DNA of 30,045 nt, from the IMG/VR virus record IMGVR_UViG_3300036759_000018, positions 1 to 30,045 of that record; one strand, 5' to 3'. The number at the start of each line of letters is the position of its first letter. Within the stretch, counting starts at the first letter, position 1. This DNA is from a virus. The notes below the pieces were generated by a model, which did no database searches, was not told the DNA's origin, and was given only the letters and a program-made list of their open reading frames with translations. Below, in pieces: positions 1-27,651 of this stretch. Position numbers and translations under genes: made by a program.

Positions 1-51
1 GGGTCTTTCGTTCATTTCGACGGGGGTCCCCCCGCCCATTTTTACTTTCAT
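1..51 (-). CDS. 5' end of a gene downstream of HNH; position suggests a terminase subunit (partial)
   Basis: Only the first 17 codons are in the window; the reading frame is open to the left edge. The ATG at 49-51 overlaps the TGA of the HNH gene in an ATGA junction, the coupling used at most other junctions here, and that is the main reason for calling it. The visible N-terminus begins MKVKMGGGTPVEMNERP and is too short to assign by sequence. Known context: in many siphophages the HNH gene lies directly before the small and large terminase genes, and the portal follows them; the portal is at the other end of this window. The terminase label is therefore inference from position only. Confidence 0.5.
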   Translation of the reverse strand, partial: MKVKMGGGTPVEMNERP

Positions 52-404
52 CGTTTACTCTTTCGCATACGCGCGAGATCGTCGCGTGTCTTTCGTTCGT
101 CGCACGTCTCACAGAGTAGGGCGAGATTCGATTCGATCGTCGGCCCGCCCTCGGCGCGCGGCACGATGTGATCGACCGAACCCTCGCCGGGCGCGACCTC
201 AGCGCCGCACGATCGACAGCGGTTCCGATCCCGTCGACGCACACGCGCAGCGAGCAGACGGTACGACCCACGCGGCGGGACGCCCAGCGTTCGCCGTCGC
301 CCTTCGCTGTCCGCCCACGGGCTCGGCGCATGCGCGACGCAGCGGCCTCGACGTACGGCGAGATGGGGACAACCGGCGACCGAGCAGACGTCACGCGCGC
401 GCAT
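48..404 (-). CDS. HNH endonuclease
   Basis: 118-residue HNH nuclease. A C-terminal HNH core has zinc-type pairs C63/C66 and C98/C101, the central DH at 78-79 followed by IVPR, N93 in the ESNLALLC stretch, and K105. An extra N-terminal Cys/His cluster (C7, C12, C22, H25) looks like a second zinc knuckle. HNH proteins beside terminase are known in phages of the HK97 type to assist large-terminase cutting during DNA packaging, and this gene lies at the expected place, just before the gene entering the left edge. It overlaps the upstream gene by 14 bases. The last metal-ligand position of the motif is D102/K105 and not the common H-x-x-H, which is within family variation. A stand-alone homing role is possible but less likely. 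Confidence 0.92.
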   Translation of the reverse strand: MRARDVCSVAGCPHLAVRRGRCVAHAPSPWADSEGRRRTLGVPPRGSYRLLAARVRRRDRNRCRSCGAEVAPGEGSVDHIVPRAEGGPTIESNLALLCETCDERKTRDDLARMRKSKR

Positions 405-2420: not shown

Positions 2421-2882
2421 TCACCATCCGACGGCCTCTAGCCAGCGATTCGAGAGCAGCTCGACGAGCGCTTTTCGTCGCTCGGTCCAGCCGCGCCACT
2501 CGTCGAGCGCGGGTTCGCTCAGGTACTCGGCGACGGCCTCGACCTCGTCGGGGGTGACGATCCCGGCGCCGACGATCCCGAACCCCTGCGGCGCCCCGAG
2601 CGCGGCGAGCCAGTCGGCCTGCCCCTCGCGTAGTCGATCGCCCTTCGCTTTCAGCTCGAAGAGGTAGACCTCGCCGGACCGGGCGAGGACGACGTCGGGA
2701 AACCCACGGTCGCCCGAGAACGGCGTGCGCCACTCACCCGCCGCGTTTCGCGCCGGGCGAAAGTGGACATGACGCCAGCCGCCCGCGCGGGCGCCGTCTC
2801 GAAGGGTGCGCGCGAGGTCGGTCCCAGAGACGCGTCTGCGTCGTCTCTTTTCGGATTCGCCCTTGCGCGCAGACTCACTCAC
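2421..2882 (-). CDS. VRR-NUC / PD-(D/E)xK nuclease
   Basis: 153 residues, GTG start at 2880-2882, GAGGG about 9 bases upstream. It has the VRR-NUC signature: RGFPDVV (D63), then YLFELKAKGDRL with E76 and K78, then EGQADWL, giving the D-(x)n-E-x-K metal site. The short stand-alone VRR-NUC fold is known from phage Holliday-junction-type and structure-specific nucleases. It directly follows the RepA-like ATPase gene (10-base gap), suggesting a job in replication or recombination-intermediate processing. A very basic N-terminus (residues 12-17) may contact DNA. One copy of the CGCAGACTC motif repeated in the upstream gene lies in its first codons. Confidence 0.85.
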   Translation of the reverse strand: MSESARKGESEKRRRRRVSGTDLARTLRDGARAGGWRHVHFRPARNAAGEWRTPFSGDRGFPDVVLARSGEVYLFELKAKGDRLREGQADWLAALGAPQGFGIVGAGIVTPDEVEAVAEYLSEPALDEWRGWTERRKALVELLSNRWLEAVGW

Positions 2883-3084
2883 CCGACGGCCCTCACCACT
2901 CGATGTCGTCCTCGGGCGAGTCCGTCTGCGTCTGCGAAATAGAGTCTGCGCCCTTACGGGCGCGCAGACTCGCAGACTCTATTTCGTGGCCCCCCGCAGA
3001 CGGGGAAGAATGCGAGTCTGCGTCGAGTCTGCGCGGGTCCGCAGACTGAGAGTCTGCGTCGAGTCTGCGCGGCGCCGCAGACTC
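2868..3084. repeat. Ten-copy 9-bp motif array in the repA 3' end; candidate iterons / replication origin
   Basis: CGCAGACTC (or its complement GAGTCTGCG, one copy with a last-base change) occurs at 2868-2876, 2942-2950, 2963-2971, 2971-2979, 3014-3022, 3025-3033, 3040-3047, 3050-3058, 3061-3069 and 3076-3084, in both orientations. Part of the array is a 36-bp tandem duplication (3014-3049 and 3050-3085, 32 of 36 identical) that also gives the protein repeat PRRLDADSQSAD / PRRLDADSHSS. Several partial copies (GTCTGCG) lie around 2834 and 2923. Clustered short repeats inside or next to an initiator/helicase gene are a known layout for theta-replicating phage origins. That these are iterons is inference. 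Confidence 0.7.
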
Positions 3085-4128
3085 TTCGAGCCCTTCGAGC
3101 GGCTTCGGGCGGGCTGGATCGTCGGCGAGCCAGAGGGCGAAACGATGACCTCGATCGCCCGCCGAGCCCGGCCCGAGATCGACGATCACGCCCTCGCCGA
3201 GCATCTTGTCGCGACGCTTCGCGAGGTAGGCATCGGCGCCCTTCACGACCGCCGCGACGGCCGACCAGCCGGTGCCGGGGTTCTCTCGGATCGCCCGCAG
3301 GATGTCGTCGTACGTCCGCTCGGCGATCGTCGCCTCGTCCTCGTCGGCCAGCTCGAACCCGCCCTCGCCGAGCCATTCGAGGCGAAGCGTCGTCGCGTGA
3401 TAGGCCGAGCCCCAGCGCGCCTTCTGGACGAACAGCCGCGTCCGCCCGTGGCCCGAGCCCTGCACGTGCAGCATCGTGTCGCCGACGCCCTCCCAGGCGC
3501 CCGAGACGCGCCCCGACTTCGACTCGTGATGGACGAGTAGTGAAGCGACCGGGCGCAGCGAGCGCTCGCGGACCGAGGCGACGAGCGCGGCGAAGGCGCG
3601 AACCTCGGCCATCGTCCCGGCCTCGTCCATCCCGAGGTTTGCGACCGGCCCGGCGATGACCAGGTCGACCGACTGCTCGAAGATCGCCCGCGCGAGCTGG
3701 GCGCGCATCTCGTCGTCGTCAAAGCGAAAGCCGTTCCAGGGCGCTTCCCAGACGCGTAGACGCTCACCCGGCGCCTCGTGCGGCCAGGCGTCCAGCTTGC
3801 GCGCCAGCTTGCGACGGAAGAGCGGACGCGGCCCCTCGGCCTCGATCAAGAGACAGCAGACGGGGCGGGCCACGGGGACGCCGAGCCAGGCGTGACCGAT
3901 CGCGAGATGACAGGCGAGGTCGATCGCAAGCGTCGTCTTCCCGACGCCGCCGTCGCCGTAGATCATCGCGTCGCCGCCCGCCGGGATCAGGTTCGCCTCT
4001 TCGGTTCCGAGCAGCGCCTCGGCGCCCGGCTCGTCGACCGCGGCGAAGTCGACCGCCGAGACGATCGCGACCTCGCCCTCGGCCTCGTCGGGCTCGCGTA
4101 GCGCGGGGGCGAGGTAGCCCTCGCTCAT
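2893..4128 (-). CDS. RepA-like AAA/RecA-fold ATPase (replicative helicase loader or helicase)
   Basis: 411 residues from the ATG at 4126-4128, in an ATGA overlap with the upstream stop. RecA-like core: Walker A GDGGVGKTT at residues 58-66, then LLIEAEGP, a strand VDLVIAGPVANLG at the Walker B position, LLVHHESKSG with the HH motif, and a GHGRTRLFVQKARWG segment typical of RSF1010 RepA-like helicase relatives in phages. The strand that usually ends in Asp reads IAGP, so the classic Walker B acid is not obvious. After a small C-terminal winged-helix-like part (TYDDILRAIRENPGTGW onward), the last ~70 residues are low complexity and repeated because they are encoded by the motif array at 2935-3084. 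A role in replication initiation is inferred from fold, array and position. Confidence 0.85.
   Translation of the reverse strand: MSEGYLAPALREPDEAEGEVAIVSAVDFAAVDEPGAEALLGTEEANLIPAGGDAMIYGDGGVGKTTLAIDLACHLAIGHAWLGVPVARPVCCLLIEAEGPRPLFRRKLARKLDAWPHEAPGERLRVWEAPWNGFRFDDDEMRAQLARAIFEQSVDLVIAGPVANLGMDEAGTMAEVRAFAALVASVRERSLRPVASLLVHHESKSGRVSGAWEGVGDTMLHVQGSGHGRTRLFVQKARWGSAYHATTLRLEWLGEGGFELADEDEATIAERTYDDILRAIRENPGTGWSAVAAVVKGADAYLAKRRDKMLGEGVIVDLGPGSAGDRGHRFALWLADDPARPKPLEGLEESAAPRRLDADSQSADPRRLDADSHSSPSAGGHEIESASLRARKGADSISQTQTDSPEDDIEW
2935..2986. repeat. 16-bp perfect inverted repeat with internal 6-bp hairpin
   Basis: CGAAATAGAGTCTGCG at 2935-2950 is the exact reverse complement of CGCAGACTCTATTTCG at 2971-2986. 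Inside lies a second perfect stem, GCGCCC-TTAC-GGGCGC (2948-2963), which competes for the end of the outer arm. The outer arms contain the only A/T-rich steps in this neighbourhood (AAATA/TATTT). The structure sits within coding sequence for the last ~30 residues of the RepA-like protein. It could be the unwinding or initiation part of an origin, or a transcription/translation hairpin before the next gene. Confidence 0.75.
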
Positions 4129-4391
4129 TTGAACGGGCCGCCCTCGGAGATCGCGTCGAGCATCGACGCCTCGACGTAGAGCCAGGTGTCGCCCGAGGGG
4201 ATCGGCTCGCCCCGCATCGCCCGCACGAGCGCCGCCCGGTCGAGCCTGCGCACGAGCACGGGACGCCCTTCGAGGATCGACTCGGCGAGACGCAGGTCGC
4301 GGGCGAGCATGATCGCCGCCCAGCGGCGGCACGACTCGACCGAATGCTGGCGGGCCAGCCCTTCGATCAGCTCGACGAGGGCGTCGCTCAC
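4125..4391 (-). CDS. Small helical protein of unknown function
   Basis: 88 residues, GTG start at 4389-4391 overlapping the upstream stop (GTGA); its own TGA overlaps the start of the RepA-like gene (ATGA). Mostly helical: MSDALVELIEGLARQ, then CRRWAAIMLARDLRLAESIL, then a short strand VLVRRLD and further helices. No metal site or catalytic motif. Its place between two coupled replication-region genes suggests an accessory part in replication, but nothing in the sequence shows this. Confidence 0.7.
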   Translation of the reverse strand: MSDALVELIEGLARQHSVESCRRWAAIMLARDLRLAESILEGRPVLVRRLDRAALVRAMRGEPIPSGDTWLYVEASMLDAISEGGPFK

Positions 4392-4834
4392 TTCGGCAGT
4401 AGGTCGAGTCGGCCGACGAGCCCGAGCAGCGTCCGCTCGACGATGTACGGGTCGGGGCGTGGCCCTTCGAGGTCGCGGAGGATCGTCGCCGGGGACGAGA
4501 TCGCCATAACGCGCGCCGAGCCCCGCGGGATGCGATCGACGATCGTCTGCAGCGCCTCGACGACCTCGCCGCGCTCATGAAACGTCGCGACGCCGCCGTC
4601 GAAGTAGCGGACGCTCACGATGCAGCCCGCATAGCGAACCCGCGAGCGGGGGTGACGGCGAAGCCGTGAGAGGCGCCCGCGACGCTTCGCGCGCCAGACG
4701 GCGGTCGAGCATTCGGCGCAGCGAAACGAGCCGTCTTCGCCGACGAGCGCGCGAACCTCGGCGGGCGACAGCTCGACCGAGACGGCGCAGCCCTCGCAGG
4801 TCGCCTCGAACGTGTCCTCGGCCACGCTCACCAT
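4388..4834 (-). CDS. Zinc-ribbon protein of the replication region
   Basis: 148 residues from the ATG at 4832-4834, which overlaps the upstream gene by 7 bases; a GTG one codon later (4829-4831) would give a GTGA junction and is equally possible. A four-cysteine zinc ribbon is clear near the N-terminus: C13-x2-C16 and C39-x2-C42. It is followed by a basic stretch (KRRGRLSRLRRHPRSR). The C-terminal half (YFDGGVATFHERGEVVEALQTIVDRI onward) looks like a small alpha/beta domain. Zinc ribbon plus basic linker suits nucleic-acid or protein binding in the replication operon. No family name assigned. Confidence 0.75.
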   Translation of the reverse strand: MVSVAEDTFEATCEGCAVSVELSPAEVRALVGEDGSFRCAECSTAVWRAKRRGRLSRLRRHPRSRVRYAGCIVSVRYFDGGVATFHERGEVVEALQTIVDRIPRGSARVMAISSPATILRDLEGPRPDPYIVERTLLGLVGRLDLLPK

Positions 4835-5238
4835 TCGGGCTCTTCCGGCTCGACGTAGGGCGCCCGCGTCTCGGCCTTCGGCGGGACGGGGAGGGCGTCC
4901 ATGTTCTGCTCGATCGCGACGCCGAATCGGTAGATACGCCGCCCGCCCGACAGCTCGTCGTCGATCCGCTCGATCGCGATCGAGTCGCCTTCGCGCGGCT
5001 GCATGCTGTCGAACTTGCGCGCAAGGCGCGCCTTCCCGTACATAAAACAGAGGGCGCCGTCGCGGTCCCAGAACAGGAAGACGCGCTGCTCGCCGTACTC
5101 CGACGAGGTCGTCGTCTCGCCCCGGTAGCGGCCCTCGAACCCGGCGCCGATGTCCAGCTCGACGCGGTAGCCCCACTCGCCCGCGTCGGCCTCGTCGGCG
5201 TTCTCGCGGGCTCGTGCGCGCAGGCTTCGCTCACTCAT
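4828..5238 (-). CDS. Hypothetical beta-rich protein, possible OB-fold ssDNA-binding role
   Basis: 136 residues, ATG at 5236-5238 with a GGAGAGG-type site about 8 bases upstream in the 13-base gap after RecT. The middle is dominated by strands: YRVELDIGAGFEGRYRGE, EQRVFLFWDRDGALCFMYG, EGDSIAIERIDDE, RRIYRFGVAIE. It ends in an acidic, Pro/Glu-rich tail (VEPEEPEW). Beta-barrel pattern, acidic C-terminal tail and placement right after recT resemble single-strand-binding proteins, but I see no diagnostic SSB motif, so this is only a hypothesis. Confidence 0.75.
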   Translation of the reverse strand: MSERSLRARARENADEADAGEWGYRVELDIGAGFEGRYRGETTTSSEYGEQRVFLFWDRDGALCFMYGKARLARKFDSMQPREGDSIAIERIDDELSGGRRIYRFGVAIEQNMDALPVPPKAETRAPYVEPEEPEW

Positions 5239-5251
5239 TGTCTTGCCTCTC

Positions 5252-6466
5252 CTAGTAGGGGATGTCGTGCGGGTCGACGGGAAACGGCCTCGACTCGGGG
5301 TCGCTCGGGTCCCACTGTTCGAGCGCGTCGATCACGCGCCCGGCCTCTTCGATGGTGAGATCGCTCGATGTCTCGACCGTTCGTTTCGCCGCGGTCGAGC
5401 AGTAGGCGAGCCGGGCCTCGCGGGTCGAGACGCCGCGCTCGCGAAAGAGCGCGTTCATCTTCCGCCGCTGCGGATCGGTGATCAGCTCGGGCTCGGCCGC
5501 GTTCGCCTTCGCCCGTTCGCGCGCGATCGTCTGCTCGGCGGCCTCGACGGCGGCGTCGCCCGTCTCGGGCTGTACCGGCTGTCCCGGTACAGGTGGGACA
5601 GCTTCGGTCGAGGCTTCGAGATCGCGCCGCAGCTTCGCCTCGTTCGCGGCGGTGTCAGCCTCACGCTCGGCCGCGAGTAGCGCCTCGGCCTCGTGCGCGT
5701 CCTCGGGGTCGGCCTCGACCTCGGTCGGGGCGGGCTCGCCTTCGGTCGGGCTCGGGCTCGCCCCTGCGCCAGTGTCCGGCGCGGGCGTATCTGATTCAGT
5801 CGGGGTCGGCGACGAGGACGCCGTCGGTTCGGGGGGATCTTGCGGCGACCGACGGCGCCTCGTCGTCCGTAGGGCCGGGGCGGCACCCGGCCCCGCGACG
5901 GCGGTCCGAGGGGGTGGTCCGTCGTCACTCTCAGGGTACGCCTCTTCGGTCACAGGGAAACCGCCGAGGACGTCGGCGAAGGCGATCCGCGCGAGGTCGG
6001 CGGTCGCACGGGCGACGAGCATCTGCCGCGGGTACGAGCGCCAATTCGACTTCGAGGCGAGCCCGGCGCGCTTCGCGTCGTCCATCGTCCAGGTCGCCTC
6101 ATGCGTCCGGTCGTCGTCGGCTCGCTGGCCCGCGACGACGGCGCGAGTGTTGGTCGACTCGACGACCCAGACGCGATGTCCGCGCGCGAGGATCGCCCCG
6201 CGGACGCCCTCGGCCGAGACACTCGGGCGGCCGTCGATTACGGCGATCTTCGCGAGCGACTGCATCGGGTCGAGCCCGATCGAGTCGCCGTAGAGGATCG
6301 CCGCGACGATCGCGTCGGGCTTCCCACGTAGCCCGCGCGGGACAAATTCGGTGTCCGAGACGATCCGCGCCAGCTCGACAGCGGGCGCCATGAGGGCGAT
6401 CCATTCGCGCGCGACGCCGTTCGCGCGCTCTTCGAGTGTCACGCTGTAGGGCTGTAGCTCGGTCAT
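5252..6466 (-). CDS. recT: RecT-family single-strand annealing protein
   Basis: 404 residues, ATG at 6464-6466 in an ATGA overlap with the upstream gene. The N-terminal ~185 residues carry the RecT pattern: ELARIVSDTEFVPRGLRG, AIVAAILYGDSIGLDPMQSL, AKIAVIDGRPSVSAEG, MDDAKRAGL, NWRSYPRQMLVARA and the ADLARIAFADVLGG end. RecT anneals complementary strands and works with a 5'-3' exonuclease; such an exonuclease is two genes upstream. Residues ~190-330 form a long Pro/Ser/Thr/Glu linker. The C-terminal ~70 residues (TDPQRRKMNALFRERGV onward) form a separate helical domain seen in some phage RecT proteins. The linker DNA contains overlapping inverted repeats (5570-5602). Confidence 0.9.
   Translation of the reverse strand: MTELQPYSVTLEERANGVAREWIALMAPAVELARIVSDTEFVPRGLRGKPDAIVAAILYGDSIGLDPMQSLAKIAVIDGRPSVSAEGVRGAILARGHRVWVVESTNTRAVVAGQRADDDRTHEATWTMDDAKRAGLASKSNWRSYPRQMLVARATADLARIAFADVLGGFPVTEEAYPESDDGPPPRTAVAGPGAAPALRTTRRRRSPQDPPEPTASSSPTPTESDTPAPDTGAGASPSPTEGEPAPTEVEADPEDAHEAEALLAAEREADTAANEAKLRRDLEASTEAVPPVPGQPVQPETGDAAVEAAEQTIARERAKANAAEPELITDPQRRKMNALFRERGVSTREARLAYCSTAAKRTVETSSDLTIEEAGRVIDALEQWDPSDPESRPFPVDPHDIPY
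5570..5602. repeat. Two overlapping, mutually exclusive inverted repeats inside recT
   Basis: CTGTACCGG (5570-5578) pairs perfectly with CCGGTACAG (5584-5592), and GCTGTCCC (5578-5585) pairs with GGGACAGC (5595-5602). The two stems share bases, so only one can form at a time. They lie in the low-complexity linker of RecT, where coding constraint is weak. The function is unknown; candidates are a DNA-binding site or an RNA switch/terminator. Confidence 0.6.
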
Positions 6467-7155
6467 CGCCGCCGCCCTTGCAAGACGAGCCGTTCGAGGT
6501 CGGTCAGGTCCCAGGTCGCCAGTACGGCGAAGATGTCGCCGCCGATCCGCCGTAAGAGCGCCGGGTCATAGGGCGGCCTCGGCGGGCTCGACCATTCCCA
6601 CGCCTCGACTTCCCAGAGGACGAGGTACGCGTCGAGCGACGAGGCGCGGCGCGGCCGATGCTTCGGCGGGACGATCGGCACCATCGCCGACCACCCGCTC
6701 GCCGACGAGCCGACGAGATCGCGACCGGCCTCGTAGCCCTCGGGTAGCTCGAACGTGCCGGGGTCGAGCCGGACCTGCCCCGAGCGGTAGTCGAAGCGCC
6801 GCCCCAGCGAGTCGACGTACTCGATCGAGCCGTCATCCTGCACGCCGCGCGAGTAGACGAACGCGGCCGAGGCGCGACAGACGGCCAGCCGTGGCAAGAG
6901 GTACTGCTCGCGCCGTTCCCATTCGCGCCCCTTGCCGACGACGAGCGTCCGCGGGATCGTCCCGCCCTCGCGGATCGTCGGCGTGAGCGCGATCAGGGGG
7001 ACGTCCTCGCGCGCGGCCAGTCGGTAGGCGCGAGCGATGTCCTCGAATTCGGCCCGCTGGCGCGAGCCCTCGGGGAACGAGCGGGCGGCCCGACGGTAGT
7101 CGGCGGCCTGCTGTCGAGCGCCGCTACGCGGGATCGTGATCGCTTCGAGATTCAT
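6463..7155 (-). CDS. Conserved-looking phage protein of unknown function
   Basis: 230 residues from the ATG at 7153-7155, in an ATGA overlap with the exonuclease gene; its own stop overlaps the recT start. Recognisable parts: an N-terminal helical arm (ARQQAADYRRAARSFP), a central beta part with TIPRTLVVGKGREWERREQ and RRFDYRSGQVRLDPGTF, and a C-terminal segment rich in Trp/Pro ending DLTDLERLVLQGRRR. Located between exonuclease and annealing protein, so probably tied to recombination, but no family or catalytic residues are evident. Confidence 0.75.
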   Translation of the reverse strand: MNLEAITIPRSGARQQAADYRRAARSFPEGSRQRAEFEDIARAYRLAAREDVPLIALTPTIREGGTIPRTLVVGKGREWERREQYLLPRLAVCRASAAFVYSRGVQDDGSIEYVDSLGRRFDYRSGQVRLDPGTFELPEGYEAGRDLVGSSASGWSAMVPIVPPKHRPRRASSLDAYLVLWEVEAWEWSSPPRPPYDPALLRRIGGDIFAVLATWDLTDLERLVLQGRRR

Positions 7156-7943
7156 GCGGCGACCTCTTTCGGGTCGGGCGGGCGCAAGGGCTCGCCGATG
7201 ACGTGTCGATAGCCGCCGTACCGCTCGCCGAGCCGCTCGTCGGCGAAGCGCGCAATACGGCCGACCATCTGAAAGAGCAGGAATTCGTCGCGGCCAGCGT
7301 CGACGGGGACGAGGTCGTAGCCGTCCGCCCTGAGCCAGACGACGCCCGTCCGGTCGACCTCGGGGACGGGCTGCTCGGCCCCGTCGGCGTCGAGGTAGAA
7401 GTCGGCGAAGCGATACGCCGCGAGCTGCAGCGCGTTCTCGGGGAAGACGCCCGAGCGCGTCGTCTTGAGATCGACGAGCCAGCGGTTCCCGTCGGCGAGG
7501 TCGGCGATCAGGTCGAGCGTCCCGCAGTAGCGGGGCTCGCGCTTGGCGACGACCGTCTCGACGAGGACCTCGCGCACGTCCCACTCGCGCGCGAATTTCA
7601 GATAGGCGTCGACGTGGCCGACCAGCTCGTCGGGAATCGGGATGTCGCGATCGGGTTCGAGCGCGAGCCGCTTCGCGAGGTCGTGCACTTCGGTCCCGCG
7701 TCGAGCCGCCGGGTCGCGGTCGCGCTCGTTCGCCGTGCGGACGTACTCGAAGCGATCCGAGGGCGACAGCGTCGCGAGGTAATCCCACTCGTCGAGGACG
7801 GCGTTCGCCGAGCATTTCGCCGTCCAGGAGGTAAGGGGCCGCTGTTTCGGGTAGCCCTCGCCGAGCGTCGTCACGCCCGGCGCCGGACGCCCGTCGAGTG
7901 TGTACGAGTGGCCCCGCCCGTGATTGCGGCGGACGAGGCTCAT
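7152..7943 (-). CDS. RecB/Cas4-like PD-(D/E)xK exonuclease
   Basis: 263 residues, ATG at 7941-7943 in an ATGA overlap with the upstream zinc protein. Nuclease motifs in order: RRGTEVHDLAKRL with H87; YCGTLDLIADL with D144; WLVDLKTTRSG with D158 and K160; ENALQLAAYRFAD with Q173 and Y177. This H-D-DxK-QxxxY order is that of RecB/AddB-type nuclease domains used by phages as the exonuclease partner of RecT. Length and isolation fit a stand-alone phage exonuclease. Together with RecT it would form a double-strand-end resection and annealing module. Confidence 0.9.
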   Translation of the reverse strand: MSLVRRNHGRGHSYTLDGRPAPGVTTLGEGYPKQRPLTSWTAKCSANAVLDEWDYLATLSPSDRFEYVRTANERDRDPAARRGTEVHDLAKRLALEPDRDIPIPDELVGHVDAYLKFAREWDVREVLVETVVAKREPRYCGTLDLIADLADGNRWLVDLKTTRSGVFPENALQLAAYRFADFYLDADGAEQPVPEVDRTGVVWLRADGYDLVPVDAGRDEFLLFQMVGRIARFADERLGERYGGYRHVIGEPLRPPDPKEVAA

Positions 7944-9712: not shown

Positions 9713-11113
9713 ATGAGTGCAGCAGCGAAGCGTCGGGGGATCGGATACGTCCGCGTGTCCCGCGTCAATGGCCGGGCGGGCGAGTCGTTCATCGCGCCCG
9801 AGGTCCAGAGGTCGATCATCGAGGCGACCGCGAAGGCGAACGGGATTCGTATCGTCGAGTGGGTCGAGGACCTCGATCAGTCCGGCCGGAAGTACGAGCG
9901 GCCCGGCTTTCAGGGGATGCTCGAAGCGATCGAGGCAGGTCGCGCCGAGTGCGCGGTCGTCGCCAAGTTGACTCGGTTCGCGCGGTCCGTCCTCGACACG
10001 CATCGCGCCCTGAATCGCCTCGACGCAGTCGGCGCCCAGCTCGTCGCGGGCGATGTGAACGTCGACACGTCGACGCCGCACGGGAAGATGATGCGCGGCT
10101 TTCTGACCGTCCTCGCCGAGTTTGAGGTCGACCTGATTACCGAGCAGTGGACGATCGCTCGCTCGGCCGCCGTCGAGCGCGGCGTCTACATCGCAAACCG
10201 CCCGCCGCTCGGCTACGACTTCGACCCTTCGAAGCGCCTCGTTCCGAACGCCGTCGAGGCGCCCGCGATCGCCGAGCTGTTTCGCGCTCGCGCCGAGGGT
10301 CAGACGTGGGCGGCGCTCGCCGAGATGTTCGAGGCGATGACCGGCCGCGAGATCGCCGAGGGGTCCCTGCCGAACGTGATTCGGAATCGCGCCTATCTCG
10401 GCCAGGTTCATAACGGCGACCTCTCGAACCTCGACGCCCATCCGGCGATCGTCTCGATCGACGAGTGGCGCGCGGCGCAGGGTCAGCGGACGCAGCGCGG
10501 CCCGCGCTCGGGCGAGTCGGTCGCCCTGCTCGGGGCGGCGACGCTTCGCTGCGGCTCGTGCGGCCGGACGATGTCCTACCGCGGCGGGGCCGAGGGTCAG
10601 TACGTCTGCAACCGGCAGTCGAAGGGCGAGCCCTGCGCGGCGCCGGTCGTGATTCACGCGTCGAAGCTCGACCCGTACGTCGAGGCTGCGCTGCTCGCGC
10701 GGGTCGCCGAGGTCGAGGTCGAGGGCTCGGTCGAGGGCGACGAGCTGGCCGCAGCCGAGGGGCGCCTCGCGACGGCGATCGCCGAGCGCGACGCGTATCT
10801 CGCAGCTGTCTCGGCGGCGGTCGTCGGCGTCGACGCCTTCCGCGCGGGGGCCGAGGCTCGGACGGCCGAGGTCGAGTCGGCGCAGGACGCGGTCGACGAG
10901 CTGCGCGCCTCGGCCGACCTCGACGACCGGCTCGCGACGATCGGCGACGAGTGGCCGAACCTCGACCGCGACGAGCAGCGCCGCATCGCGGCGGCGGCCC
11001 TCGACACGGTCACGATTCATCGAGCCTCGCGGGGGCGCTGGACGCCGCTCGACGAGCGCGTCGAGATCGCGTTCGCAGGCGCCACGTCCGACGAGGATCG
11101 CGTCGCCGCATGA
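9713..11113 (+). CDS. int: Large serine recombinase (phage integrase)
   Basis: 466 residues, ATG at 9713-9715 with GGAGG 7 bases upstream. Resolvase domain: GYVRVSR with R14 and catalytic S16, DLDQSGRKYERPGF, VVAKLTRFARS with R88 and R91, then the long helix with FEVDLITEQW. Recombinase domain from about residue 160 (NRPPLGYDF). Zinc ribbon C280, C283, C299, C308. A charged coiled-coil region follows (about residues 340-400), the part known in this family to control direction of recombination. Such enzymes join attP to attB without host factors except an RDF for excision. The gene is alone on its strand between divergent and convergent neighbours; no RDF could be identified. Confidence 0.96.
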   Translation: MSAAAKRRGIGYVRVSRVNGRAGESFIAPEVQRSIIEATAKANGIRIVEWVEDLDQSGRKYERPGFQGMLEAIEAGRAECAVVAKLTRFARSVLDTHRALNRLDAVGAQLVAGDVNVDTSTPHGKMMRGFLTVLAEFEVDLITEQWTIARSAAVERGVYIANRPPLGYDFDPSKRLVPNAVEAPAIAELFRARAEGQTWAALAEMFEAMTGREIAEGSLPNVIRNRAYLGQVHNGDLSNLDAHPAIVSIDEWRAAQGQRTQRGPRSGESVALLGAATLRCGSCGRTMSYRGGAEGQYVCNRQSKGEPCAAPVVIHASKLDPYVEAALLARVAEVEVEGSVEGDELAAAEGRLATAIAERDAYLAAVSAAVVGVDAFRAGAEARTAEVESAQDAVDELRASADLDDRLATIGDEWPNLDRDEQRRIAAAALDTVTIHRASRGRWTPLDERVEIAFAGATSDEDRVAA

Positions 11114-11126
11114 TCGCGACGAATAC

Positions 11127-11159
11127 AGCCCCGACGCGGTCGCGTGCCGGGTCGGGGCT
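11127..11159. terminator. Hairpin between convergent integrase and repressor-operon genes
   Basis: AGCCCCGAC (11127-11135) and GTCGGGGCT (11151-11159) form a perfect 9-bp stem with a 15-base loop, starting 13 bases after the integrase stop and ending on the stop codon of the minus gene. There is no T-run, so it is not a textbook Rho-independent site, but GC-rich stems without U-tracts are common in high-GC bacteria, and the place between convergent genes suits a two-way terminator. Confidence 0.65.
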
Positions 11160-11404
11160 CATGCGGCATCGGCGAGGGCGGCGCGAAGAGCGTCGCCCTT
11201 TTCGCGTAGATCGTTCCGCGCCTCGCGCAGTACCGCCGACGCGGCCCGCAGCTCGGAGAGGCGCGAGGGCGCGATCCCGAACGCGACGAGCAGCGCCTCG
11301 GCCTCGTCGATCGAGCCGAGCGTCGTCCCGAGCGCGAGCGTCGCGGCCTCGTAGGCGTCGGCCTGCTGGGCGCGCCAGTCGGGGGGCCAGGGCGTCGCGT
11401 TCAC
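11159..11404 (-). CDS. Small helical protein following the repressor gene
   Basis: 81 residues, GTG at 11402-11404 in a GTGA overlap with the XRE gene stop, so translation should be coupled to the repressor. Almost wholly helical: WRAQQADAYEAATLALGTTLG, IDEAEALLVAFGIAPSRLSELRAA, then LREARNDLREKGDALRAALADAA, the last being coiled-coil-like. No motif gives a function. Co-expression with the repressor suggests a lysogeny role or a repressor partner; this is inference from position. Confidence 0.7.
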   Translation of the reverse strand: MNATPWPPDWRAQQADAYEAATLALGTTLGSIDEAEALLVAFGIAPSRLSELRAASAVLREARNDLREKGDALRAALADAA

Positions 11405-11661
11405 GAGCCGTACAGCTCGTTCGGATCGACCGCCGCGCCGGGGAACGCGTGCGCGATCTTCGCGATCGTCGAGGGGTGGGGACGCAGCGTCTCGCCGTTC
11501 TCGATCGAGGCGATTGTCGTCTCGGCCACGCCCGAGCGCCGGGCGAGCGTCGCACGGTCGCAGCCCCGGTCGAGCATGAGCTGGACGAGGCGCCGCCCGC
11601 GGGCGTTTGCGGCCTCTTTGAGCTGGCGGCGGCGGATCGTTCTCGGTGGATCGGCGGCCAT
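11401..11661 (-). CDS. XRE-family helix-turn-helix repressor
   Basis: 86 residues from the ATG at 11659-11661, with AGGGG about 8 bases upstream; an in-frame GTG two codons earlier is possible. The HTH_XRE core is clear: QLMLDRGCDRATLARRSGVAETTIASIENGE with the recognition helix TTIASIE, then the stabilising STIAKIAHAF helix. A basic arm (RTIRRRQLKEA) precedes it. There is no C-terminal protease/dimerisation domain of the CI/LexA type, so induction by RecA-driven self-cleavage is not expected. It faces a divergent plus operon across a palindrome-rich region, the usual setting of a phage immunity repressor. It could equally be the Cro-like partner. Confidence 0.88.
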   Translation of the reverse strand: MAADPPRTIRRRQLKEAANARGRRLVQLMLDRGCDRATLARRSGVAETTIASIENGETLRPHPSTIAKIAHAFPGAAVDPNELYGS

Positions 11662-11864
11662 ACTCACGGCCCCTGTCCTACGACTCGGGGTCGCCCGCCG
11701 CAATCGCCCGGCCCGAGTCGCTTCCGCTATTTGCGGCCTCGACGTTTGCCGAAAACAGTGTTTCCGAGTGGAAACTAGCGAAACCTAGTGCGTTTTGGAA
11801 CACTCTCGCTACAAATCTTCGCCGTCGGACGTCCGGTACCCGAGACGAGAGAGGTCGAGCCGAC
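11662..11864. promoter_or_regulatory. Divergent control region with tandem palindromic operator candidates
   Basis: Noncoding stretch between the repressor and the plus operon, with an A/T-rich island at about 11745-11820. Two perfect palindromes abut: GTTTCC-GAGT-GGAAAC (11760-11775) and ACTAG-CGAAAC-CTAGT (11774-11789). They share the half-site pattern CTAG/GTTTC. An outer pair, AGTGTTTCC (from 11757) and GGAACACT (11798-11805), is an imperfect inverted match around them. Spaced palindromes between divergent regulator genes are the standard form of phage operators; which protein binds is not shown. No clear -35/-10 pair was found on either strand. GAGAGGT (about 11848-11854) may serve the next gene. 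Confidence 0.65.
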
Positions 11865-12236
11865 ATGAGTACGACCGTTCAGGACCCCATCGCGGGCGCG
11901 CTGGACGAGGTCGAGCGATGGGCGCAGGCGAAGACGCAGGCGCTCGACCGGCTGGCGCTGCAGGTCGTCGAGGCGCGCGACGCGGGCGCCAGCGTCCGAG
12001 CCCTCGCGAAGAGGTACGACATCCCGCCGTCGCAGGTGCACGCGCTCACGACCCGCGGACGCGAGCTGCGCTGCGCAGGGCGACGGGCCGCCCCGAGCTG
12101 GCCCTCGACGGCGCTCGACGCCGAGCGCGCGGCGGGGCGCGCGACATGGGCGGCGATCCTCGCGGCGCTGGCGGCGATCGTTTGCCTACTCGCGAGCGTG
12201 GCCCCCGCAGCCGAGCGGCTCGCGATGTTCCTATGA
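11865..12236 (+). CDS. HTH protein with C-terminal transmembrane segment
   Basis: 123 residues, ATG at 11865-11867. N-terminal helices (DEVERWAQAKTQALDRLALQVVEAR) lead into a helix-turn-helix-like unit, ASVRALAKRYDIPPSQVHAL (about residues 39-58), of the type used for sequence-specific DNA binding. After a basic/Pro stretch there is a strong hydrophobic segment at about residues 95-114 (WAAILAALAAIVCLLASV), so the protein is probably held in the membrane with the HTH inside. It is the first gene of the plus operon, just past the palindrome region. A membrane-tethered regulator or a membrane-bound DNA organiser would fit; the function is unknown. Confidence 0.75.
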   Translation: MSTTVQDPIAGALDEVERWAQAKTQALDRLALQVVEARDAGASVRALAKRYDIPPSQVHALTTRGRELRCAGRRAAPSWPSTALDAERAAGRATWAAILAALAAIVCLLASVAPAAERLAMFL

Positions 12237-12451
12237 CAAACAGCGAGCTACGATCCTCGTCGTCGCTGGACGGCGACACTTCGCCGACGTACGGGCGCTC
12301 GAATGGGCGCCCGTCGTCGTACTGTCTCGACGCGTTGCTACCCTCGCGGCGCGAAGTGTCGGGCGGGATCGCCCAGCGACGACGATGCGGCCGTCGCTCG
12401 GACTGGACGAAACTTCCCGGCGAAATCCGATACGGGAGGTTCCCAAAGTGA
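12233..12451 (+). CDS. Possible 72-residue protein bridging two operon genes (uncertain)
   Basis: The frame starts at ATG 12233-12235 in an ATGA overlap with the previous stop, and ends with a TGA that overlaps the next GTG start (GTGA at 12448-12451). Both ends match the coupling of its neighbours, which argues for a real gene. Against it: the product (MTNSELRSSSSLDGD onward) is Ser/Arg-rich with no visible fold, the third codon positions look less GC-biased than in neighbours, and the DNA carries three nested inverted repeats that better suit a noncoding structured RNA. The downstream gene also has its own strong ribosome-binding site. Either reading, or both, may hold. Confidence 0.4.
   Translation: MTNSELRSSSSLDGDTSPTYGRSNGRPSSYCLDALLPSRREVSGGIAQRRRCGRRSDWTKLPGEIRYGRFPK
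12257..12385 (+). other. Nested inverted repeats; candidate structured RNA or attenuator
   Basis: Three complementary pairs are nested in order: TCGTCGTCGCTGG (12257-12269) with 12373-12385, 13 of 13; CGACACTTCGC (12274-12284) with 12351-12361, 11 of 11; and CGACG-t-ACGGGCGC (12285-12298) with 12307-12319, 13 pairs with one bulged base and an 8-base loop. Local hairpins compete with these: GGCGA-CACT-TCGCC (12272-12285) and GGGCG-GGAT-CGCCC (12361-12374) use the same bases. Such mutually exclusive folds are typical of attenuators and riboswitch-like leaders. It ends about 50 bases before the ribosome-binding site of the next gene. It does not match any RNA family I know. Confidence 0.55.
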
Positions 12452-12945
12452 CCGCCGACCTACTGTCGCCCGAGCAGATTCGCGGGCATCTTTCGAAGAT
12501 GGTCGAGCCCTTGCGCGAGCAGCTCGCGCTCGTGCACGCGGAGATCGGCCAGTACGAGACGCGGCTCGCCGAGCTGCGCGCGATCCGCGGCGAGCTGTCG
12601 CGGACGATTCGCACGATTACGGGCGAGCCCGCGACGAATCTAAACGGGAAGGCTCGAAAGAATGGGTCGAAGGCGAAGGCGTCGAAGGGTCATGACGTTT
12701 CCGCCGAGCGCCTCGACGCGATCGTCGACTGGCTTCGCGAGCATGAGGACGACTACCCCTACGGCTTTATCGGGACGGCCCTCGCCCAGACAGAGGGCTT
12801 TCCCGGTACATCGCAGACGCACGTCGCAAAGGCGCTGCGGACGCTGCACGAGCAGGGTCGGATCGTCTTCGATCATCTCGGCGGGCCGGGCTCGAAGGGC
12901 GGCGCCGGGAAGTTCTACAAGCTCGTCCCGCAGCCGAAGTCATGA
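12448..12945 (+). CDS. Coiled-coil plus winged-helix protein
   Basis: 165 residues from the GTG at 12448-12450, chosen for the strong GGGAGGT 7 bases upstream; an earlier in-frame ATG at 12385 has no such site. The N-terminal ~60 residues form a coiled coil (VEPLREQLALVHAEIGQYETRLAELRAIR in part). A basic linker (ARKNGSKAKASKG) follows, then a winged-helix-like domain, about residues 80-160: LDAIVDWLREHEDDY, THVAKALRTLHEQGRIV and a beta wing with GAGKFYKLV. The arrangement suits a dimeric DNA-binding protein. It is in the middle of the plus operon opposite the repressor, so a regulatory or replication-control function is plausible but unproven. Confidence 0.85.
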   Translation: MTADLLSPEQIRGHLSKMVEPLREQLALVHAEIGQYETRLAELRAIRGELSRTIRTITGEPATNLNGKARKNGSKAKASKGHDVSAERLDAIVDWLREHEDDYPYGFIGTALAQTEGFPGTSQTHVAKALRTLHEQGRIVFDHLGGPGSKGGAGKFYKLVPQPKS

Positions 12946-25175: not shown

Positions 25176-25852
25176 GTCGCGATCACGCTCGGGGCGGCGA
25201 CGGCGGGGGCGGCGCTCGCGGGACGTAACGCGACGATGCAGGCTGCAGCTTGGTCGGTATCCGAGACGGTTCCCTGGACGCGTGTCGCGGCCGGAGTCGC
25301 GAGGTCGCGGTCGCCAATCACGATGTAGCCCGTCCCGGCGAAGAGCCCCGAGGGGGTCGTGTCCGAGTCGACGAAATCGGTCGTCGGCGCGTCCCAGGTG
25401 AACGTATACGCAGCGTTCGGATCGTTCCCAAATATGCCGACTAATTTCGCGTTCGCCGTTAGCGGGGTGATCAGCGCCGTCGGCCAAACATCATCGAACG
25501 AGATCGTCGAAAAGACGGGCGCGACATCGAGCGGGGTCGCGGGCTCGCAGCCGCGGTATGCGGCGAGGACTGAAATCCCGGCCGCATTCGCCGCGAAGAT
25601 GTTCGTCCAAGTCGCCGACTCGGCGCCGATGCGGCGTTTCCAGAAAACCGACAGCGTCGTATCGTTCGAGCCCGCGTTCACTTGCCCGATCTTGGTCCAG
25701 CCGGTTGGCGGCGTTCCGCTCGTCGAGTGTGCGGCGTCGGTCGCGGTCGCGAGTAGCAGCGTGTCGTCGTCGGCGCAGCCTGCGGGCTCGGCGATGGTGA
25801 AGCCGCGGACGGTGTCGAAGGTGACGCGACTCGCGCCGACGCGGGCGATCAC
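25172..25852 (-). CDS. Fibre-cassette beta-rich protein
   Basis: 226 residues, GTG at 25850-25852 in a GTGA overlap. Beta-rich from end to end: [74 protein letters not shown]. The pattern ("...GWT.I..." then "..VFWK..." then "..V.AYRG") is common in surface- and fibre-associated proteins of phages and bacteria. It lies between two fibre genes, so a fibre tip or accessory is likely. The DNA seems slightly less GC-rich than neighbours. Confidence 0.7.
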
Positions 25853-27651
25853 GGCGCCCCCAGGGTCAGCGTGACAATCAGCCCTTTTGCCCCTGTCCCG
25901 GCGGCGTCGACGTCGGCGCGCAGCTCGTCGCCGTTCGCGAGGGTTCGATGCGCGGCGTCGATGACGGGCGGGACGGCGGCGTCTTTCGAGTCGCGTTCGC
26001 CCGCGTCAATCGTGATACGCGTCGAGAGAATGTCGGCGCTCTGGACGGGGTTCGCAACTTGGACGGTGATCGCGCCCGACGACGAGGGGGTGATGACGTG
26101 CGCCTGCGCGGCGAGGACGACGAGCCCGTCGAGCAGCGCCGGGATCGCGGCGTACGCCTTCCCGTCGCCGGTCGTGAGCGTCGCCGTCGGATCGGTGACA
26201 AGCTCAAACAGCCGCGAGACGACGACCGGCGCCGCAATGACCATCCCGCGAAAATTGAAAAACCAGCCCGACGTCGTCGAGTCGGCGACGAGCAGCGGTT
26301 TCGAGACATGCCCGACGGTCGTCGGCTGCGTCGTCGTCAACGCGCCCGCGGTCGTCGGCGAGAGGTAGTAGACCGAGCCCGCTGTCAGCCCCGACAGTCC
26401 GGCGACGCGGCCGACCGGAACGAGATTGAAGTGATTCGCGTCCTGCACGAGCCCGACGATCCCGACGACCTCGGCGTTCACGACCGAGTCGGCCTGCGCT
26501 TTCGCGTAGTTGGTCCCGTTCATCCGTAGGACGTCGCCGACGGCGAATCCGTGCGCCGTCTTTGTGATCGGCCGCGCGACCTGGCCCGAATTGACTTGCG
26601 CGGTGATCGCCCCGGAGATCGTGCCGATCTCCTGTAGCGCGGCCTCGACCTGGCTCGCGGCGTAGAAGCCGCCCGCGTCGACGAGCGAGATCGCGCTCGC
26701 GTCGTGCGCGTCGGTCGGGTCGGCGAGATGGTCGGCGAGCGCGGTCGCGGTCGTCGTGTCGACGGGACCGGCTGGCCCTTCGGGACCCTCTGGCCCTTCC
26801 GGGCCGAGCAGCGTTATCCCGGTGTAGACCCACGCGGCGCCCTGCTTGTCCCAAACGCGGCCGTTGTCTTCGAGGTAGAGATCGCCGTCCTCGCCGCCCG
26901 AGTCGCTCGGTACGCCGGACCCGTAGAGCCATTCCGTCGACTCGCCTTCCGGCCCTTCCGGTCCGGGGTCGCCCTCTGGCCCGGCGATCCCTTGCGGCCC
27001 TTCGGGGCCGGGGTCGCCCTGCGGCCCTTCCGGACCGGTTGCGCCGGGCGTGCCGGGCGGCCCTTGCGCGCCTGTCGCGCCGGGCGGGCCTGTCCCGCCG
27101 GGGTCGCCTTGCGGCCCCTCGGGTCCCGTCGGGCCGGGGTCGCCCTGCGGGCCGGGCGGCCCTGCGGGTCCGACGATGGCGCCCGCGTCGACCCAGGTCG
27201 AGCCGTCCCAGACGTACATATGACCGTCGGCCTCGACGATCCAGACGTCGCCCGGCGAGGCATCGGTCGGCAGGTCGCCGACGGTCGGTACCGAGCCCTG
27301 CACTTCGAGCCCGGCGCCCGGCTCGCCCTGCGGGCCTTGCGGTCCGGCTGGCCCTGCGGGGCCGGTCGAGCCCGGCGGCCCCTGCGCACCCGTCGAGCCC
27401 GGCGGGCCGGGCGGTCCCGTGGCGCCCGGCGCACCCGTCGCACCCGCGGCGCCCTCGACGCCCTGCGGCCCCTGCGGGCCGGGGACGCCCTGTAGCCCCT
27501 GCGGTCCGGGCGGGCCGGTCGCGCCGTCGTCGCCGGGCGGGCCGGGATCACCCGGCGGCCCCTGCGGTCCGGGCGGGCCGACTTGTCCGCCCTCGACGAC
27601 CTCGACGGTCGCCGTGTCGCGGATGACCTCGATGACGTCAGTCGTCGACAT
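25849..27651 (-). CDS. Collagen-like tail fibre protein
   Basis: 600 residues, ATG at 27649-27651. Three Gly-x-y collagen-like blocks lie at residues ~25-113, 161-236 and 283-296, separated by two beads: [20 protein letters not shown] and [19 protein letters not shown]. Then comes [20 protein letters not shown] and VEAALQEIG, a widespread tail-fibre motif, a region with [20 protein letters not shown], and a beta-rich C-terminal domain. Collagen blocks form trimers that hold a long thin stalk. Such proteins are known on actinophage tails and sometimes on capsid surfaces, and this cassette lies among head genes. It overlaps the preceding gene by 14 bases. Confidence 0.88.

Follow-up and report, generated by a model that had tools for sequence, protein, structure and literature searches.

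The replication origins of most sequenced phages are unknown. In phage lambda, the initiator O has the origin repeats (iterons) within its own coding sequence. The principle that a replicative helicase itself reads the repeats of its origin is already known from P4 and SaPI. SaPI Rep and SCC Cch2 recognise, through a C-terminal domain, the iterons that immediately follow their own genes (PMC7581432), and in P4 a single protein, alpha, both contacts the origin repeats with a winged helix and unwinds the DNA (PMC4234260). At the RSF1010 oriV, which contains iterons and ssi stem-loops, the work is split over RepA, RepB' and RepC, and RepC is a separate iteron-binding protein (PMC4234260). Stem-loops beyond the replication gene are present in pRN1 and in phage BIP-1 (PMC4234260).

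We analyzed a virus contig of 30,045 bases (the window), in which the gene for a predicted replicative helicase ends in an array of short repeats. The features are listed in Table 1. Very probably, the array is an oriV-like replication origin of the phage, the iterons of which would be read by the phage's own RepA-type helicase. The initial annotation had proposed as a candidate that this is the origin and that the array is bound by the encoded protein or another initiator, and the comparisons described below, all of them made with sequences and predicted structures, support this proposal.

Table 1. Features at the iteron array of the window
Feature	Position	Strand	Remarks
Iteron array	2868..3084		Nine exact copies of CGCAGACTC/GAGTCTGCG, with starts and orientations 2868+, 2942-, 2963+, 2971+, 3014-, 3025-, 3050-, 3061- and 3076+, and one CGCAGACTG (3040-3048)
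Long inverted repeat	2935..2986		16-bp perfect arms 2935-2950 and 2971-2986, one iteron per arm
Inner hairpin GCGCCC-GTAA-GGGCGC	2948..2963	-	Perfect hairpin within the inverted repeat; GTAA loop on the helicase coding strand
36-bp tandem duplication within the array	3007..3078		Units 3007-3042 and 3043-3078, 89% identical
RepA-type helicase gene	2893..4128	-	411 aa; RecA-fold core, wHTH, disordered tail, acidic tip DDIEW
Predicted C-terminal winged helix-turn-helix (wHTH)	3127..3336	-	Residues 265-334; from AF2 secondary structure and pLDDT; proposed iteron reader
Disordered C-terminal tail of the helicase	2896..3096	-	Residues 345-411; pLDDT about 30; its coding DNA carries most of the array
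VRR-NUC-like nuclease gene, downstream	2421..2882	-	Pfam VRR_NUC E 8e-5, slightly under the curated cut-off; holds the outermost exact copy (2868-2876)

The product of the helicase gene is predicted to be a hexameric helicase of the RepA type (AAA_25). It matches Pfam AAA_25 (PF13481; E 9e-21, 74.8 bits versus a cut-off of 27) as well as PHROG helicase/primase families, and it contains the Walker motif YGDGGVGKTT. The best PDB match is RSF1010 RepA (1g8y), with a VIA Z of 23.4, compared with 19.4 for the next family, and the RepA-like fold was also found with Foldseek (TMt 0.77). In the AlphaFold2 model the RecA-fold core is confident, and the same model places a C-terminal winged-helix domain behind it. 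A small gene (4125-4391, minus strand, 88 aa) overlaps the helicase start and has a clear counterpart directly upstream of the helicase of one relative, L082.

The window resembles SaPI Rep and Cch2 in having iterons at the downstream end of the helicase gene and a C-terminal DNA-binding domain as the proposed reader. However, their helicases belong to D5/SF3, whereas the motor of the window is a RepA-type RecA fold, and the iterons of the window are situated inside the coding tail. The likeness to P4 alpha is the winged helix on a helicase as reader of origin repeats, which is a prediction for the window; P4 alpha, in contrast, combines a primase with a helicase of another superfamily, and the window helicase has no recognised primase domain. 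Because its motor is not of the SF3/D5 type, the window would work like the SaPI and P4 systems and is not a member of that group. Among solved structures, RSF1010 RepA comes closest to the motor domain, and RSF1010 also has iterons and stem-loops; its iteron binder RepC is a separate protein, whereas the wHTH of the window is part of the helicase. pRN1 differs in having no iterons and an SF3 helicase. With lambda, the window would share origin repeats within the coding sequence of the initiator, but O is not a helicase, and the proposed reader in the window is the helicase itself.

The initial annotation had reported ten copies of a 9-mer in 217 bp, in both orientations, together with a 36-bp tandem duplication and a perfect 16-bp inverted repeat. 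The array was recovered with nine exact copies, while the tenth has one mismatch; the two orientations, the duplication and the inverted repeat are all present as described. All nine exact copies are confined to the array, and a search of the remaining record did not reveal any other. For comparison, shuffled sequences of the whole window are expected to contain 0.65 exact copies, with a maximum of 3 across 100 shuffles, and the densest cluster of any 9-mer within 217 bp had at most 4 copies in 200 shuffles, versus the 9 observed. Several pairs of iterons have an 11-bp spacing. Weaker copies, GCGTCTGCG, are found at 2832 and 2928, and the core CGCAGAC occurs 14 times from 2834 to 3082.

No AT-rich unwinding stretch stands out near the iterons, as the richest 25-mer between 2301 and about 4225 contains 13 A/T of 25. 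To our knowledge, such a stretch is not universal for phage origins, and we therefore word the claim as “works like an iteron origin”. The cumulative GC skew has its minimum at 5252, about 2.2 kb from the array, in a shallow plateau, and nearly all genes are on one strand. Neither AT content nor skew helps to locate an origin.

The array had been placed within the repA-like gene. This is true for most copies, which lie in the 3′ coding tail, but the outermost copy is located past the helicase stop codon, in the first codons of the downstream gene, the protein of which had no relatives detectable by protein search. The iteron copies fall in all three codon phases and in both orientations, and the repetition in the protein tail is therefore a side effect of the repeated DNA, which bears out the earlier view that the C-terminus is repetitive only because the DNA is. 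Among relatives, sequence conservation in the helicase tail is limited to the tip, which reads PDIDW, DDIQF, DDIPF or SEPAF. This suggests why an array inside the coding tail may be tolerated. The acidic tip resembles that of single-strand binding proteins.

Relatives have arrays at the same place, composed of other letters. The nearest one (L003; helicase identity about 54-60%) has six copies of CACCGACTC at the same position, L082 has nine copies of GGGAACCA, and seven copies of CCGTTCC are present in L084, which is a prophage within an Actinomycetota genome. Within the clade of the window, further arrays were found in L201, L204 and L206, and visual inspection showed shorter repeats in L202 and, where the contig ends, in L203, while L205 has neither an array nor a long helicase tail. 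Hence, no case was seen in which the tail is kept without the array; nearly all clade members have an array there, with differing letters. A direct search of the array against phage records returned no match, because the letters are private to each phage. Tandem GAGTCTGCG was found at 78 loci in viral contigs, the denser of which resemble regular repeats (12-bp multiples). Little was gained from searching 399 genomes of the class to which L084 belongs.

A blind scan was based on the alignment of helicase proteins alone, with no repeat information, and yielded 40 phage loci. A cluster was counted when the densest 8-mer cluster of a locus exceeded all ten shuffles of that locus. This was the case for 27 of the 40 loci, and 25 of the 27 clusters are within 450 bp of the helicase stop codon, i.e. 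adjacent to the initiator/helicase gene; the independent cases are somewhat fewer than these counts, because the 40 loci include two contigs found earlier and some near-duplicates (e.g. L236 and L238). Each helicase family has its own repeat motif, and in many phages the whole array is outside the helicase gene.

These locations bear on the possibility that the array is a coding or RNA feature, i.e. a disordered linker with repeats, or a hairpin or terminator in the mRNA where the gene ends. The strand indeed folds better than shuffled versions (z of -5.45 as RNA and -5.90 as DNA), but any array that has its repeats in both orientations should form such structure. Neither the position beyond the gene in many phages nor the use of three codon phases and both orientations in the window agrees with this explanation, which we regard as very unlikely. 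An Rfam scan of six sampled relatives retrieved one tRNA only and had no match at the element.

Arrays at the stop codon of the primase-helicase gene are also present in named isolates, in which the preceding gene is annotated as replicative helicase repA, DNA primase or primase/helicase. These comprise the Streptococcus phages Javan311 and Javan17 (AGGGACA, 11 and 10 copies, respectively), Javan74 (GAAAAATA, seven copies), Javan629 and Javan173, Bacillus phage BCJA1c (AAATGAA, six copies), Enterococcus phage EFC-1 (AATAGCT, six copies), and Rhizobium phage RHph_Y3_1 (CGTTCCCA, eight copies; primase-helicase gene at 10867-12933 of its record). No such array was found at the AAA_25 helicase stop of several lytic actinophages (SPI1, ReqiPine5, Gibbous and Jasmine), Caulobacter phage RW, and Wolbachia phage WO. 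These six AAA_25-like phages show that the design is not universal. In another group (L090, L095, L106, L141 and L239), the common repeat GCGTTCCC occurs beside the primase-helicase, several members have a GTA hairpin, and in some of them a further similar stretch near TTTCAATGACTTA follows.

Some centromeres are likewise marked by arrays of short repeats in both orientations, and the array could thus be a partition centromere (parS-like) or another maintenance site of an extrachromosomal prophage. We consider this extremely improbable: the arrays go with helicases, ParA/ParB were not recognised among the proteins scanned (part of the window genes), and a serine integrase is present, so that the prophage is expected to integrate. 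Alternatively, the repeats might be an operator array, at which binding of the helicase or of a different phage protein would repress the early operon or set the timing of its transcription, and would not start replication. The array straddles the junction between two genes of the same direction (2893 / 2882), and initiators that bind iterons often double as repressors, both of which would be compatible with an operator. However, in family after family the arrays are found at gene 3′ ends, not at promoters, and the letters of the repeats track the wHTH of the replicative helicase, as described in the following; an operator in place of an origin is therefore quite unlikely.

To relate the repeats to their potential reader, 27 primase-helicases of one Gram-positive phage family were aligned, one duplicate was left out (n = 26), and the similarity of the repeats was compared with the similarity of the C-terminal wHTH and with that of the remaining protein. 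The partial correlation of repeats and wHTH, given the rest, was 0.68 (0 of 5000 permutations), while that of repeats and rest, given the wHTH, was -0.09. The control regions had values of 0.15 (the stretch 350-750 bp downstream) and -0.08 (an upstream coding stretch). Specific helices pair with specific repeats, i.e. [SN]EKT[VI]RR with AGGGACA in seven phages, KERT[VI]ENY with [AG]CGAAAA in three phages, and NKSVENY/SKKTVENY with GAAAAAT in four phages. The first set includes the unrelated metagenome contig L154, which has the same helix and repeat although its wHTH shares only 24-35% identity with those of the streptococcal phages. The model of the L154 protein has a low mean pLDDT of 52; its C-terminal part shows the helix-helix-helix-strand-strand order of a winged helix with a pLDDT of about 65-77. 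This co-variation is the pattern expected if the helicase reads the repeats.

The repeats and the wHTH are neighbours on the DNA, and part of the correlation is due to their being transferred together as one cassette. The array could accordingly be an origin at which the co-variation reflects nothing but linkage, the gene 3′ end and the repeats being exchanged together while another phage protein reads the repeats. The slight correlation of the downstream control region would be in line with this, as would the wHTH adjoining the repeats, but the control value is far below 0.68, L154 combines AGGGACA with the EKT-[VI]-RR helix in spite of its low wHTH identity, and none of the other genes seen is constant beside the array. 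Joint transfer of neighbouring DNA thus seems to explain some, but not all, of the co-variation, and we hold a different reader to be unlikely. That the wHTH of the window reads the window array would follow by analogy, carried over from the Gram-positive primase-helicase family to the window clade.

The inner hairpin of the window has a counterpart in relatives, CCCTAC-GTA-GTAGGG, which is common to L003 and L082. A scan of viral contigs for the hairpin 15-mer gave 114 stretches, a number that by our own estimate may be of chance order for a collection of that size, and the case for the hairpin therefore rests on the surrounding arrays and on the enrichment in array zones. At least four copies of some 8-mer within 220 bp were present at 48 of the 99 distinct hairpin loci, versus almost never in control windows of the same loci. 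The element is often situated 100-170 bp beyond the stop codon, and 27 of the 51 large genes near hairpins match AAA_25, while many match primase or helicase families. GTA/GTAA hairpins with at least five pairs occur seven times in array zones versus once in the rest, i.e. about 134x denser; the arrays were mostly chosen regardless of the hairpin, and two of the seven are the contigs that supplied the motif. As 28 of the 35 arrays have no GTA/GTAA hairpin, the hairpin is an accessory. GNA and GNNA loops closed by C-G form unusually stable DNA hairpins. A search of open-licence papers for the hairpin core CTACGTAGTAG did not retrieve anything on phages.

Taken as an origin read by its own helicase, the locus might operate as follows. 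The wHTH after the motor domain would bind the short repeats at the end of the helicase's own gene, and the bound domain would gather the hexameric helicase on the spot. The strands could then open around the central inverted repeat, exposing the GTA/GTAA-loop hairpin on the coding strand as a possible landmark for loading or priming. Whether this extends to a broad class of phage origins is more tentative, and we rate the chance at somewhat under even. In such a class, the last domain of a RepA-type (AAA_25) helicase would specify the repeats located where its own gene ends, origin and reader would diverge and move as one short cassette, and some members of the class would share the GTA/GTAA hairpin as a signal for loading or priming. 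Judging by the papers searched, the new elements are the breadth of occurrence among RepA-type phage helicases, the GTA-loop hairpin as a recurring feature, and the co-variation, and reports of this origin class were not found among open-licence papers. If true, the origin could be located from sequence in every phage that has an AAA_25 helicase with a C-terminal winged helix, and the matched recognition helices and repeats could serve directly as test cases for a recognition code. The window would represent the extreme form, an origin written in the coding tail of its own proposed reader.

The remaining record contains several further recognisable genes. A RecT-like annealing protein (5252-6466) and an exonuclease (7152-7943) form a RecET-like pair beside the helicase (region 5252-7943, minus strand). 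The RecT-like protein ends with DIPY and a 136-aa protein (4828-5238) with EEPEW, acidic tips akin to that of the helicase. The gene for the large serine integrase (9713-11113, plus strand) is on the strand opposite to most other genes, and on account of this integrase the phage is probably temperate. An HNH endonuclease gene (48-404, minus strand) lies at the left end of the record, and a long protein with collagen-like Gly-X-Y repeats is encoded in the tail-gene region (25849-27651, minus strand).
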